Assembly: GCA_913057235.1 (NCBI GenBank) | Contig: CAJXNI010000001.1 | Span: forward strand, 62,001 to 126,000 | Reading direction: 5' to 3' | Origin: an uncultured Bacteroidota bacterium | Lineage (GTDB): Bacteria > Bacteroidota > Bacteroidia > Flavobacteriales > Schleiferiaceae | Length of the DNA: 64,000 nucleotides | Shown here: one piece after another, positions 41,360-46,094 of the stretch | Layout: each line of letters opens with the position of its first letter | Numbering within the stretch: position 1 is the stretch's first letter | Notes under the pieces: model-generated | What the model saw: only the letters and a program-made list of their open reading frames with translations | Databases searched by the model: none | Told to the model about the DNA's origin: nothing | Made by a program: the position numbers and the translations under genes

Positions 41360-41728
41360 CTAGAATTTAGAAGCCCGCCAGGTTCCGGAAAGGCTGCTGT
41401 CTGCTTGGGCTTTCCAAGTGCCTGAACCCCGGTTATTGTCTAGGTCGCCTTCAAAAACGTAGGTTTGGCCTGCTACCTCTGCTGAGACTAAAATACCACC
41501 AACCGCATCTACTTTGCCGGTTAGGTTTATTTGCCCCGTTGTGAGCGTATCACTACGTAAGCTTCCGCTGAGGGCTCCCTCCCGGTCTACAAAAAAATCT
41601 AGTCGCCCGAAGTCTTTGGCCCCTGTATAGGTGCCACCCCAATCTCCCTTGTAAATTTTCAAAGGATTCTCAGAACATGCTGTTAAAGCAAGCCCTAAAA
41701 AAATCAAAAATGGAAATAGCCTTTTCAT
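41360..41728 (-). CDS. Small lipoprotein of unknown function
   Basis: 122 residues from the ATG at 41728 (a TTG 9 nt upstream is rejected). Signal peptide with lipobox 'LALTACSE', then a beta-rich domain: 'DWGGTYTGAKDFGRLDFFVD', 'GALSGSLRSD', 'GSGTWKAQADSSLSGTWRAS'. The repeating strand-turn pattern suggests a small beta barrel or lipocalin-like fold. I do not recognise the family. It follows the SSS symporter gene by 21 nt on the same strand and may be co-transcribed. Confidence 0.7.
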   Translation of the reverse strand: MKRLFPFLIFLGLALTACSENPLKIYKGDWGGTYTGAKDFGRLDFFVDREGALSGSLRSDTLTTGQINLTGKVDAVGGILVSAEVAGQTYVFEGDLDNNRGSGTWKAQADSSLSGTWRASKF

Positions 41729-41749
41729 AAAAAACAATAAACTGTTTAA

Positions 41750-43477
41750 TTAATGGCGGGTATTAGCCTTACCGTTTAGGCTTTGCAAAAGTAACGAAAC
41801 CAGCACTACCAACGCGCAGCCAATTACATTGTACCAGAGATATTCTACCTGATATTTCATGAAAAATGGTAGCTGGTAAACCCTGCCAAAATGTATGACT
41901 AGCACCACAGTTTCGGCCACCAGAGCCGACCAAAACACGGCTCTTGCTCCTATTCGCTTCATAAAAAAGGCTACCATGAAAATGCCCAGAATAGTGCCAT
42001 AAAACAAAGAGCCTAATACGTTTACCATTTCTATGAGATTGTCAAAAAGTTGAGCCGCCAGTGCAAAACTTATGGCCACTGCGCCCCAAAAAACAGTAAG
42101 CCATTTAGACGCCCTTAATTGCTGCTGCTCGGTGGCTTCTCGTTTAAATATACGCTGGTAAAAATCTACTGAAGTGGTTGTAGCTAAAGCATTTAACTCA
42201 CTGGAAGTTGAAGACATGGCTGCACTAAAAATCAAAGCAATAATGAGCCCTACCACCCCTGCCGGCAGGTAATCCATAACAAAGGTGAGAAAGACGTAAT
42301 TGGTGTCTTTTACTTTAAAATTGGGATCGGCCTTAACCAGCAGCTGTTTCATATCACCCCTTATTTCCTGGTCATCTTCAAGCTTACGCAAAAACTCATC
42401 GCGCGTAAGGGTTTGCTCTTTGAGGCCTTGTTCTTCCAGCGCCACTTCAAAATCTGCGCGGGCCTTTTGGAGCTGCTCATAATTAAGGTGGTAAGCGTTT
42501 TCAATAGCTTCTACCTCTCCCCGGTATCCATTTTGGGCTAAACGTTCTACTGCCACTTCATTAAAAAATACCGGAGGCTTTTCATAGAGGTAAAAGATAA
42601 AGACCAGGACCCCGGTAAAAAGAATAAATAACTGCATGGGTATTTTGAGCAAGGCGTTGAACATGAGCCCCAGGCGGCTTTCGCGAATACTCTTACCCGT
42701 TAAATAACGCTGCACCTGACTTTGGTCTGTACCAAAATAAGAGAGGGCCAGAAAGAGCCCACCGGTAAGCCCGCTCCAAATGGTGTAGCGTTCGTTTAAG
42801 TCGAAATTAAAATCCAGGATTTGCATGCGCCCGGCACTACCAGCCAGGTTTAGGGCTGTACCTAATTGTGTGTGGTCTTGAATTTCCAGAATTAAAATCA
42901 CAAAAGCCAGGGTCATGCCCAGCATTATGATACCCATTTGTAACTTTTGAGTAATACTTACCGCTTTTGAACCTCCGGTAACGGTGTAAATTATTACCAA
43001 AATGCCCACAAAAAGATTGGTGAGGTTTAAATTCCAACCTAGTAGGGTACTTAAGATTATGGCCGGGGCAAAAATGGTAAGACCAGCCGCCAGGCCTCTT
43101 TGCACTAAAAATAAGAAGGCCGCCAATAAACGAGTGTTTAGGTCAAAGCGGTTTTCTAAATATTGATAGGCCGTATACACCTTTAAGCGATAGTAGATGG
43201 GAATAATAAAAGCGGACACGAGAATTAGCGCCAAAGGCAAACCAAAATAAAATTGCACAAAGCGCAAGCCCGATTCATAACCCAACCCTGGGGCGCTTAA
43301 AAAGGTGATGGCACTGGCCTGCGTAGCCATAACGGAAACACCAATGGTAAACCAACTCATTTGATTTCCGCCTCGCAAATAATCGTTAATACTGCGGCTG
43401 GTGCGGGTGCGCCAGGTACCGTAGGCCACAATTAGAAAGAGCGTTCCAAACAGTACAATCCAGTCAAAAGTGGTCAT
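41750..43477 (-). CDS. Sodium:solute symporter (SSS family)
   Basis: 575 residues with about 13 membrane spans. Family features: 'YLRGGNQMSWFTIGVSVMAT', 'SAITFLSAPGLGYESG', 'TGGSKAVSITQKLQ', 'FGTDQSQVQRYLTGKS'. It co-transports Na+ with a small solute, perhaps a sugar or amino sugar. A charged, coiled-coil-like insert of ~80 residues (~310-390, 'ENAYHLNYEQLQKARADFEV') splits the later helices and is unusual for SSS. The start ATG overlaps the stop of a 35-residue membrane peptide gene (TAATG), itself coupled to the PIG-L deacetylase gene. Confidence 0.9.
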   Translation of the reverse strand: MTTFDWIVLFGTLFLIVAYGTWRTRTSRSINDYLRGGNQMSWFTIGVSVMATQASAITFLSAPGLGYESGLRFVQFYFGLPLALILVSAFIIPIYYRLKVYTAYQYLENRFDLNTRLLAAFLFLVQRGLAAGLTIFAPAIILSTLLGWNLNLTNLFVGILVIIYTVTGGSKAVSITQKLQMGIIMLGMTLAFVILILEIQDHTQLGTALNLAGSAGRMQILDFNFDLNERYTIWSGLTGGLFLALSYFGTDQSQVQRYLTGKSIRESRLGLMFNALLKIPMQLFILFTGVLVFIFYLYEKPPVFFNEVAVERLAQNGYRGEVEAIENAYHLNYEQLQKARADFEVALEEQGLKEQTLTRDEFLRKLEDDQEIRGDMKQLLVKADPNFKVKDTNYVFLTFVMDYLPAGVVGLIIALIFSAAMSSTSSELNALATTTSVDFYQRIFKREATEQQQLRASKWLTVFWGAVAISFALAAQLFDNLIEMVNVLGSLFYGTILGIFMVAFFMKRIGARAVFWSALVAETVVLVIHFGRVYQLPFFMKYQVEYLWYNVIGCALVVLVSLLLQSLNGKANTRH

Positions 43478-43584
43478 TAACGGTAATATTCAGTAATGAG
43501 GTAAAACACAAATATTTCTAAAAACAAGAAAATTAATACGGCCGCATACAATTGGCGCCAGCGGTGTTGACTTGGCTTATTCAT
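43477..43584 (-). CDS. 35-residue single-span membrane peptide coupled to the SSS symporter
   Basis: ATG at 43584, TAA at 43479-43477. The peptide begins 'MNKPSQHRWRQLYAA', has a hydrophobic span 'VLIFLFLEIFVFYLI', and ends 'TEYYR'. The basic N-terminus suggests Nin-Cout. It starts 2 nt after the PIG-L deacetylase stop, and its stop overlaps the symporter ATG by one base (TAATG). This spacing, and the use of the whole gap, argue that it is a real gene and possibly a small subunit of the symporter. No function can be assigned from the sequence alone. Confidence 0.75.
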   Translation of the reverse strand: MNKPSQHRWRQLYAAVLIFLFLEIFVFYLITEYYR

Positions 43585-43586
43585 AA

Positions 43587-46094
43587 TCAGGGCTTATAGC
43601 TTAACAGATTGGCCCAAAGGCGATAGGCCCCTTCTACCCCGGCCGGTAATTCCCTGAAAAATGAAATGCCCGTGTAGATAAATACCCCCTGGCCATGTTG
43701 CGTCACTAGCAATCCTCCTAAACGATCGGGTTCATTGGCATCATGCCAGGCCAAAGGTGTAGCATAAGCTGGGTCCCATTCACCTGCAAAGTAAAGCCCG
43801 CGCTCCTGCAACCAACCCTCAAAATCTTGATTGCTAAGTACATTAGGACGGGTTAAAATAGGATGAACGGGCTCGGTAAACCGTGCAGGAGCCTTTTCTT
43901 CCGTAACCCTTTCTCTGGATAATTTAAAGGGCTTGGGGCCGATATCTTGGCTAAGCAAATCTCGGCTGGCCGTGTTGTACTGCACTATGTAGGTACCCCC
44001 TCCTGCCACGTACTGCATCAACTTGTCTTTAACGGTGGGCAACCAGGCCTGCGTATTGTAGGCTCGTATGCCTGCCACTATAGCTTGGTACTCACCTAAG
44101 TCTTGATTTTTAATTGCTGCTTCGGTGAGCATTTCCACCTGATAGCCCATTTGCTCCATGGCAGCTGGTACCTCATCTCCTGCTCCAGCTATATAGCCAA
44201 TGCGCTCACCACTTTTGGCCAAATCTATTTTCACCAGTTTTACCTGAGCTTCTTCAAAAACCACTCTTTTCTCAATGTGCCCGTAATTAATTTCTGTAAT
44301 GCTCTGCAACGCTTCTTGGCTCTTAGCCGATGTAAAACTTAAAGCGGCCGTGGTAGCATTTTTTTTCTGCGGCCACACTTTTAAAGCTACGGTTTGTACT
44401 TGCTCCGGCTCTGAAAAATTCAACGTAATCATTTCAGGCTTTATGTTCCAGCCTGGAGCCTTTACTGTGAAGTTGTGACTACCTTTCTCAAAAGCTTTTA
44501 CATCTAACAATAGCTCTTGCGGTTGCTCATTCACAAAAATCAGGTTCTTAGCTGCCGGGTTCACTGTAAAGGCCGGCACCACCATCAAAGGATTTTTTAT
44601 TTCGCCTTCTACCCGATCTGAGAATTTATACTGCGCTCTTACCGGCAGCATAATTACTTTATCATTTAAAGCAATTGGCACCATTAATTCCAACGCAGGG
44701 CTATTTTCAGGCTCCCCAATAAGTAACTGGTTGGGTACTTTAAACATGGTGCCATACGCATGCTCCAACCAATAGGGTTGAGAAATCTCAGTACTAAGCT
44801 TTTCAATATTTACGCTACGTGATACTTCTTCATTAAACGGTAAAGGCCCCTTTTGGCCAAATAACTCCTCTAAGCGATCAGCTGACCTGCTTTTCTGATT
44901 AGTTTCGTCTGAAGCCTTTGTACCTAGGCCCTTAAAATATTGCAGTTCTAGAGGGCTGCGGTTTACATAGTGCATTTCTAATTGAGCGTCTACCCCTGTG
45001 GTGATATACTCTTGCTTGGCTAAAAGCTCTAGGTGTAAACCGGTTACCGCCCTAAAAAGCTCTTGTACTGCGTTTTGAAAGTAGTTTTTCTGGTAGGCAT
45101 TGGTAATGGCCTCAGACTCTTGCAGCAAAACCATCAAGTCTTCTGCTATGAGGTAAGGTTTCTCAATCTGAAATTTTCCCATGACTTCTTTCAGCCGGGC
45201 ATCGCCTTCGGGCCAACCGTAACGGGCCCAACCCTGTGGAATATCCTCAAAAATATGTTCTTTGGGCGCCTCGCCTCTTAAAAGTTGCAGATACTCTTTA
45301 CGGCTACCCCTATCAACTGACACGCCAAAGCCCTGGCTTTTATGCTGGGTGCGGCTCAAACTGGCCAACTCATTGCAAGATAAGCCTAAGTGCGGGAGGT
45401 AACTGCCTACGTCTATCACGCTGTAACGGTCATCGGCAGCAGCTATACTATCCAGGTCTTGGTTCCACCAGGTACTGTGGTTCCAAAACAGTCGTTTAGG
45501 TTGCCAGGTATTTAAATATTGCAACTGCTCCCGAAACTTAGTTGGGTCACCAGCCTGGTCAAAAGCCTCTAAAGCGAGTATGGCACTGGCGGTATGATGG
45601 CCATGTCCGCCTCGTGCATCCGCTGGAAAGCGCGTAATAATCAAATCGGGTTGAAACTTCCGTAGAACCCATACCACATCGGCCAGAACCTCTTCCTTAT
45701 TCCACTGCCTAAAAGTTTCATCTGCTGTTTTGCTGTAGCCAAAATCTACAGCGCGCGTGAAAAACTGTTCCCCGCCATCAATAGCACGGGCCTGCATGAG
45801 TTCCTGAGTACGCAGTACCCCAAGCTTAGCGCCTAATTCAGTGCCAATTAAATTTTGCCCTCCATCGCCCCGGGTGAGTGAAAGATAAGCGGTACGCGCT
45901 CCTTTCTCATTTTCAAGCCAACTTAAAACCCGTGTGTTTTCATCGTCAGGGTGTGCAGCAAGGTACAGTACCCGGGTGGTATTTTGCAGTTTTTTCAAAC
46001 GATGGTAAATCTCAGCCCCATCTAATGAGGTGTTTTGGCTTAAAGCCGATAGAGCAAAAAGAGTGGTTAATAGTAAAGCACCGATGCTTCTCAT
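43587..46094 (-). CDS. Secreted PIG-L family deacetylase, large form
   Basis: 835 residues with a signal peptide ('GALLLTTLFALSALSQ'). N-terminal PIG-L/LmbE domain: metal motif 'AHPDDE' (H48, D50, D51) and the partner histidines 'GGHGHH' (H164-H167); the enzyme family removes acetyl from GlcNAc-type substrates using zinc. The centre is beta-rich. The end (~650-835) resembles a ThuA/glutamine-amidotransferase-like domain ('YQAIVAGIRAYNTQAWLP', 'YVAGGGTYIVQYNT', 'GQGVFIYTGISFFRELP'). First gene of an operon with the 35-residue peptide and the SSS symporter, suggesting that deacetylated sugar is then imported. Confidence 0.9.
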   Translation of the reverse strand: MRSIGALLLTTLFALSALSQNTSLDGAEIYHRLKKLQNTTRVLYLAAHPDDENTRVLSWLENEKGARTAYLSLTRGDGGQNLIGTELGAKLGVLRTQELMQARAIDGGEQFFTRAVDFGYSKTADETFRQWNKEEVLADVVWVLRKFQPDLIITRFPADARGGHGHHTASAILALEAFDQAGDPTKFREQLQYLNTWQPKRLFWNHSTWWNQDLDSIAAADDRYSVIDVGSYLPHLGLSCNELASLSRTQHKSQGFGVSVDRGSRKEYLQLLRGEAPKEHIFEDIPQGWARYGWPEGDARLKEVMGKFQIEKPYLIAEDLMVLLQESEAITNAYQKNYFQNAVQELFRAVTGLHLELLAKQEYITTGVDAQLEMHYVNRSPLELQYFKGLGTKASDETNQKSRSADRLEELFGQKGPLPFNEEVSRSVNIEKLSTEISQPYWLEHAYGTMFKVPNQLLIGEPENSPALELMVPIALNDKVIMLPVRAQYKFSDRVEGEIKNPLMVVPAFTVNPAAKNLIFVNEQPQELLLDVKAFEKGSHNFTVKAPGWNIKPEMITLNFSEPEQVQTVALKVWPQKKNATTAALSFTSAKSQEALQSITEINYGHIEKRVVFEEAQVKLVKIDLAKSGERIGYIAGAGDEVPAAMEQMGYQVEMLTEAAIKNQDLGEYQAIVAGIRAYNTQAWLPTVKDKLMQYVAGGGTYIVQYNTASRDLLSQDIGPKPFKLSRERVTEEKAPARFTEPVHPILTRPNVLSNQDFEGWLQERGLYFAGEWDPAYATPLAWHDANEPDRLGGLLVTQHGQGVFIYTGISFFRELPAGVEGAYRLWANLLSYKP

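Follow-up and report, generated by a model that had tools for sequence, protein, structure and literature searches.

The question raised by this locus is whether a reading frame of 35 codons, wedged between the genes for a PIG-L family deacetylase and a sodium:solute symporter of the SSS family, is a gene in its own right and, if so, with which of its neighbours the product works. The locus belongs to an uncultured bacterium of the phylum Bacteroidota and lies within a contiguous stretch of 64,000 nucleotides that we analysed as a whole (henceforth the window). The ORF (P0001) occupies positions 43477..43584 of the minus strand, stop codon included, with its ATG at 43584 and its TAA at 43479-43477, and its translation of 35 residues is MNKPSQHRWRQLYAAVLIFLFLEIFVFYLITEYYR. 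The TGA stop codon of the PIG-L gene (43589-43587) precedes this ATG by exactly 2 nt (TT), and the stop codon of P0001 has one base in common with the ATG of the SSS gene (43477), the sequence of this stop/start overlap being TAATG (43475..43479, minus strand). The peptide has a single hydrophobic span, whose highest 19-residue Kyte-Doolittle mean (2.61) starts at residue 12, preceded by a basic N-terminus (K3, R8, R10). The original prediction, a 35-residue peptide encoded between the two genes, starting 2 nt past the upstream stop, overlapping the symporter start as TAATG and combining one hydrophobic span with a basic N-terminus, was thus accurate in its description, which named no strand. 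In a mechanical count over the window's 43 ORFs with lengths >=150 aa, P0001 was the sole one-span ORF of 25-60 aa that ends between -5 and +15 nt from the start of a larger ORF; its placement is not due to chance. Scanning the operon for promoters and terminators gave counts close to those obtained with shuffled sequences, and these were set aside.

The symporter gene (41750..43477, minus strand) encodes a protein of 575 aa (P0002), which scores 247 bits against TIGR00813 (cut-off 184) and 154 bits against PF00474 and is a member of the SSS family by both its TIGR00813 score and its fold. The AF2 model of P0002 (pLDDT 79.1, pTM 0.77) contains 13 transmembrane helices, counted by hand, and its top Foldseek matches are the SiaT structures 5nva and 5nv9 (E 5.5e-19), followed by the SGLT2-MAP17 entry 8hez_A. 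A helical insert of ~90 residues (about 299-391; 42305-42583 of the window, minus strand) is located between the seventh and eighth core helices by our own count, is modelled with block pLDDT values of 76-94 and could be aligned in 22 named relatives. The PIG-L deacetylase (P0003, 835 aa; 43587..46094, minus strand) matches PF02585 with 60.7 bits (cut-off 28.2); its N-terminus resembles a signal peptide by eye, a weak ThuA-like stretch near the C-terminus (15.3 bits) stays under the cut-off of 33.4, and a search against the PDB gave no match at E<=0.001. On the other side of the symporter gene, a small ORF that looks lipoprotein-like by eye (41360-41737, minus strand; N-terminus MKRLFPFLIFLGLALTACSE) opens 12 nt past the SSS stop, with its likely ATG 21 nt past that stop; it is a possible further member of the operon.

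That P0001 is a real gene under selection, and that its family extends far beyond the window, is evident from its homologues. Orthologues of the symporter (E<=1e-100) occur in 73 of the 88 genomes of the window's family (f1), and a collection of named genomes contributed 26 loci with an SSS relative, the nearest of them labelled Bacteroidetes and Flavobacteriales, in line with the phylum Bacteroidota. A conserved ORF at the same spot in relatives had been proposed as one check of the prediction, and a homologous peptide is indeed encoded directly upstream of SSS in 66 of the 92 loci with an assignable SSS start, a count in which L040-L043 repeat f1 genomes already counted. The 66 comprise 45 of 70 f1 loci (a number that leaves out four SSS-bearing f1 genomes, G005, G047, G070 and G077) and 21 of 22 named loci, the latter including representatives of Saprospiraceae, Hymenobacter, Cyclobacterium and Solitalea. 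Across the 66 loci the peptide stop ranges from 4 nt inside the SSS gene to 107 nt ahead of its start. Three residues, W9, Y13 and V16, are at least 90% conserved in our first peptide alignment (A1), and W9 and Y13 remain so in a wider alignment of 85 peptides (A2). An excess of synonymous changes, the second check proposed, was found as well: a comparison of the window with locus L011 gives pS 0.84 and pN 0.13, and pooling 49 disjoint pairs gives pS 0.57 against pN 0.14, with the caveats that pairs were picked at >=60% peptide identity, a choice that lowers pN, and that one genome pair was entered twice.

The association with the symporter is seen across the whole phylum. In a set of 392 Bacteroidota genomes, the peptide profile matches 115 (E<=0.01), the SSS subfamily is present in 154 (E<=1e-80) and PIG-L in 133 (E<=1e-40). 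Peptide and SSS occur together in 112 genomes (hypergeometric p 5e-58, shared ancestry being ignored); one of these, G478, is counted by a profile hit at a spurious place and has a diverged peptide adjoining its SSS gene. Three of the 115 peptide-bearing genomes have no SSS hit (G114, G406 and G423), and the hits in the last two are spurious. We fetched all 123 listed peptide places together with 40 SSS loci that had no adjacent genome-level hit, and set ten spurious loci aside before counting (L191, L193, L195, L220-L224, L226 and L227); loci without the SSS N-terminus were dropped, and frames longer than 150 aa or scoring <=8 bits were not taken as peptides. By local profile search the peptide lies immediately upstream of SSS in 134 of the 151 SSS genomes examined, i.e. 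all 154 except G168, G425 and G437, for which no position was listed; this number combines 130 genomes identified by script with L135, L144, L186 and L190 and contains two loci scoring at noise level (L251, 13.9 bits; L264, 13.2 bits). As a control, the best other frame over 224 loci scored 13.1 bits, compared with a median of 45.4 for 184 adjacent peptides, once L190, a true peptide filtered out by the script, had been set aside. Five further genomes (G113, G125, G141, G187 and G362) carry the peptide elsewhere. In another eight (seven of family f39 plus G238) the position is taken by a very diverged and, as judged by eye, hydrophobic ORF, a putative homologue whose end is at most 5 nt away from the SSS start or shares one base with it. 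The f39 ORF (L255, L257, L258, L260, L262, L266 and L268), with its end 0-3 nt ahead of the SSS gene or one base inside it, may be a diverged peptide or a replacement. The remaining four genomes (G249, G200, G223 and G231) have no peptide at the SSS locus, and searching them in full retrieved none in three and, in G249, only a marginal match containing a stop.

In some lineages the peptide is dispensable. Upstream peptides are missing from 25 of the 70 f1 loci, and a search through the complete assemblies of 22 of these genomes (the g16 genomes G046 and G048, which also have loci, being left out) found the peptide elsewhere only in G008 and G009. Counted together with the named loci, the misses fall into g16 (19 loci, in small genomes where PIG-L adjoins SSS with no peptide in between), g5 (three), g15/g17 (three) and Saprospiraceae (one). 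In a phylogeny of 224 SSS proteins (FastTree, with long-branch warnings), the label 'none', which also takes in loci where the peptide is unlinked, requires at least seven changes, and loss or relocation of the gene has therefore probably occurred on several occasions.

Such losses bear on the best surviving alternative, namely that the peptide has a regulatory role, marking the symporter for membrane proteolysis or shielding it, comparable to MgtR and MgtU acting on Mg2+ importers, and is not a stoichiometric subunit. Small proteins with roles of this kind are known (PMC10710835), and a gene lost in some lineages would suit them. The spacing of the two genes, however, speaks against it: no more than 15 nt, in either direction, separate the peptide stop from the SSS start at 182 of 197 peptide loci, the commonest arrangement being a 4-nt overlap (71 of 197), which suggests matched production and not conditional expression. 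We therefore regard a proteolytic regulator as unlikely.

A different possibility is that the peptide serves the PIG-L deacetylase, or a complex of a PIG-L/SSS pathway, and not the symporter itself. PIG-L is indeed the usual third gene, a hit being present in the fetched stretch at 141 of 184 unique peptide-SSS loci, and both G008 and G009 have the peptide behind PIG-L while the SSS gene detected is on another contig. The peptide of G008 ends up 179 nt from a contig end, and a second SSS copy possibly lies just past that edge; in G009 the contig extends for ~1.1 kb beyond the peptide and holds an unrelated ORF and no SSS gene. Against a PIG-L partner stands the genome-wide cross-tabulation, whose underlying searches scored at most three and at most two candidates per genome in most cases: the peptide is present in 96 of 118 genomes with both SSS and PIG-L and in at least 16 of 36 with SSS and no PIG-L homologue (E<=1e-40), yet in only one of 15 with PIG-L and no SSS. 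The value of 16 of 36 rises in local searches, because many of those genomes carry a diverged peptide upstream of SSS. Moreover, PIG-L stands directly before SSS with no peptide at the 19 g16 loci and at four loci of the phylum sample. Since the peptide follows SSS and not PIG-L in this tabulation, SSS is the more likely partner, and we consider a PIG-L partner quite improbable. The one peptide-bearing genome with PIG-L and no SSS hit, G114 (L143 / L279), retains an intact PIG-L gene and an intact peptide, with only a C-terminal SSS remnant recognised; this broken gene may be at the beginning of its loss, or it may reflect a faulty assembly.

Genomes in which peptide and symporter have come apart are informative in another respect. 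Five genomes have an intact peptide clearly unlinked from SSS, four at a distance of ~15 kb and one, G009, with the SSS gene on another contig. The former four belong to genus g88 (L273, 1938-17098; L274; L275; L276), and in them the peptide still follows a WbqC-like neighbour, as it does in the congener G250 (L177), where WbqC, peptide and SSS are contiguous. The intervening stretch in G125 contains genes for a TonB-dependent receptor, SusD, FecR, ROK, MFS and Na/sulphate-symporter-type proteins; a further PIG-L gene is also present there, as is one resembling glucosamine-6-phosphate isomerase. The glycan-type cluster of L273, with its second PIG-L and the isomerase-like gene next to SSS, hints at an amino sugar as the substrate of the symporter. 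All four separated peptides are intact, and pairwise comparison shows 1-8 synonymous changes against 1-6 non-synonymous ones; taken alone, these counts do not demonstrate strong selection, some pairs having about equal numbers of the two. A point against the pairing is G362 (L278, 9840-10130), whose intact orphan peptide is ~108 kb from the SSS gene of that genome, the next 2 kb downstream of it holding no SSS. A mere cis-acting leader ORF, whose translation would set SSS expression while the peptide itself is inert, is compatible with the stop/start overlaps, which suggest reinitiation, but it is very improbable given the conservation of individual residues (W9, Y13 and V16 in A1, the first two in A2), the synonymous excess in the peptide codons, a spacing that reaches 107 nt in some relatives and the retention of the peptide ~15 kb away or on another contig.

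Small partners of SSS transporters are already a known kind, represented by the TIGR03647/DUF4212 proteins, by DUF485 beside ActP and by MAP17, and the peptide was compared with each. Searches of P0001 and 85 relatives against our copies of Pfam and NCBIfam returned no convincing family: COX4 for P0001 (E 0.18), DUF2976 (three of 85 peptides at E<=0.01, best 0.0011) and eight other families (one or two of 85 peptides each at E<=0.01) were all dismissed as generic similarity between single helices. The sole match of profile A2 among PDB chain sequences at E<=1, photosystem II subunit L (E 0.11-0.31), was rejected as well, and PADLOC gave no match. Like the peptide, TIGR03647/DUF4212, the small subunit of VC_2705-type symporters, is a small membrane ORF directly upstream of SSS, a position that the peptide occupies in the 134 of 151 genomes mentioned above; one pair of the DUF4212 type is encoded on contig C20 of the genome to which the window belongs. 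It differs in its length of 86 aa, its two hydrophobic stretches and its motifs; none of 85 peptides matches the model in NCBIfam at E<=0.01, and hhalign assigned the relationship a probability of 2%, with only four sequences on the DUF4212 side. DUF485 (PF04341), which we take to be the family of YjcH beside ActP, is similarly a small membrane ORF sharing an operon with an SSS acetate permease. The genes actP, yjcH and acs are placed in one operon in PMC6498577. DUF485 is distinguished by being a family of 88 positions; it is not among the five families listed when 85 peptides were scanned against Pfam at E<=0.01, and it was detected in three of 80 phylum genomes (two over the cut-off) but not in G000.

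A further comparison is with the human SGLT2-MAP17 complex (SLC5A2 and PDZK1IP1), in which a transporter of the SSS fold is joined by one separate single-helix subunit (PMC10803289), and Foldseek pairs P0002 with the transporter chains of this complex. According to the same paper, the helix of MAP17 contacts TM13 of SGLT2, thermal stability drops without MAP17, and MAP17 is viewed as part of a fixed scaffold that aids stabilisation, a direct effect on transport activity being argued against (PMC10803289). The peptide has a single span and is linked to an SSS gene, and it may partner the transporter physically as MAP17 does. MAP17 touches TM13, however, whereas the 13-helix model of P0002 has no counterpart of that helix by our own count, and profile A2 revealed no homology to MAP17 among PDB chain sequences at E<=1, the PDB holding SGLT2-MAP17 complexes. 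In the tests run, the peptide family is distinct at the sequence level from all these partners, and our searches of a literature library returned nothing on a pairing of this peptide with SSS.

Taken together, we consider it likely that P0001 is an accessory subunit with one span, specific to a particular subfamily of Bacteroidota SSS symporters, and that it would bind and stabilise the symporter. The peptide would be translated from the same message as the symporter and just ahead of it, presuming co-transcription of the two genes. Under the positive-inside rule it should insert with its N-terminus inside and its C-terminus outside, the N-terminal flank being more basic than the C-terminal one in 106 of 151 peptides and the reverse holding in 19. 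It may then pack against the 13 helices of the symporter as an additional one and, by analogy with MAP17 on SGLT2, help it to fold, stay stable or take its working state. Analyses of co-variation by mutual information (MI) on 141 pairs, and then on 115 full-length pairs, pointed under a loose null to SSS positions 484, 488 and 491 with peptide positions 20 and 23. The signal disappeared once shuffling was allowed only among close relatives, and the pairs picked by mean-field DCA (Neff 71) were not those of MI; a docking site at SSS helix 481-505 is therefore not proposed. The original prediction of an SSS subunit thus holds in part: the ORF is conserved at its spot, shows a synonymous excess, tracks SSS over PIG-L and is kept in some genomes where it is unlinked, but it is not universally required, because several lineages keep SSS without the peptide. 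A more far-reaching and doubtful reading is that the subfamily is a two-part transporter, in which the separate helix stands in for one that is built into 14-helix SSS members and that SGLT2 supplements with MAP17, making it an independent bacterial counterpart of SGLT2-MAP17.

SSS symporters have mostly been studied as single polypeptides. If the accessory-subunit interpretation is correct, a whole SSS subfamily comes with a partner of ~30-50 residues, belonging to a family that neither Pfam nor NCBIfam models in the copies searched, and work on the symporter by itself may fail or mislead. The pair would then offer a tractable bacterial model for asking how an SSS transporter is supported by a single separate helix, the same question that MAP17 poses, and, should the two-part reading also be true, the SSS fold would repeatedly require detachable helper helices.
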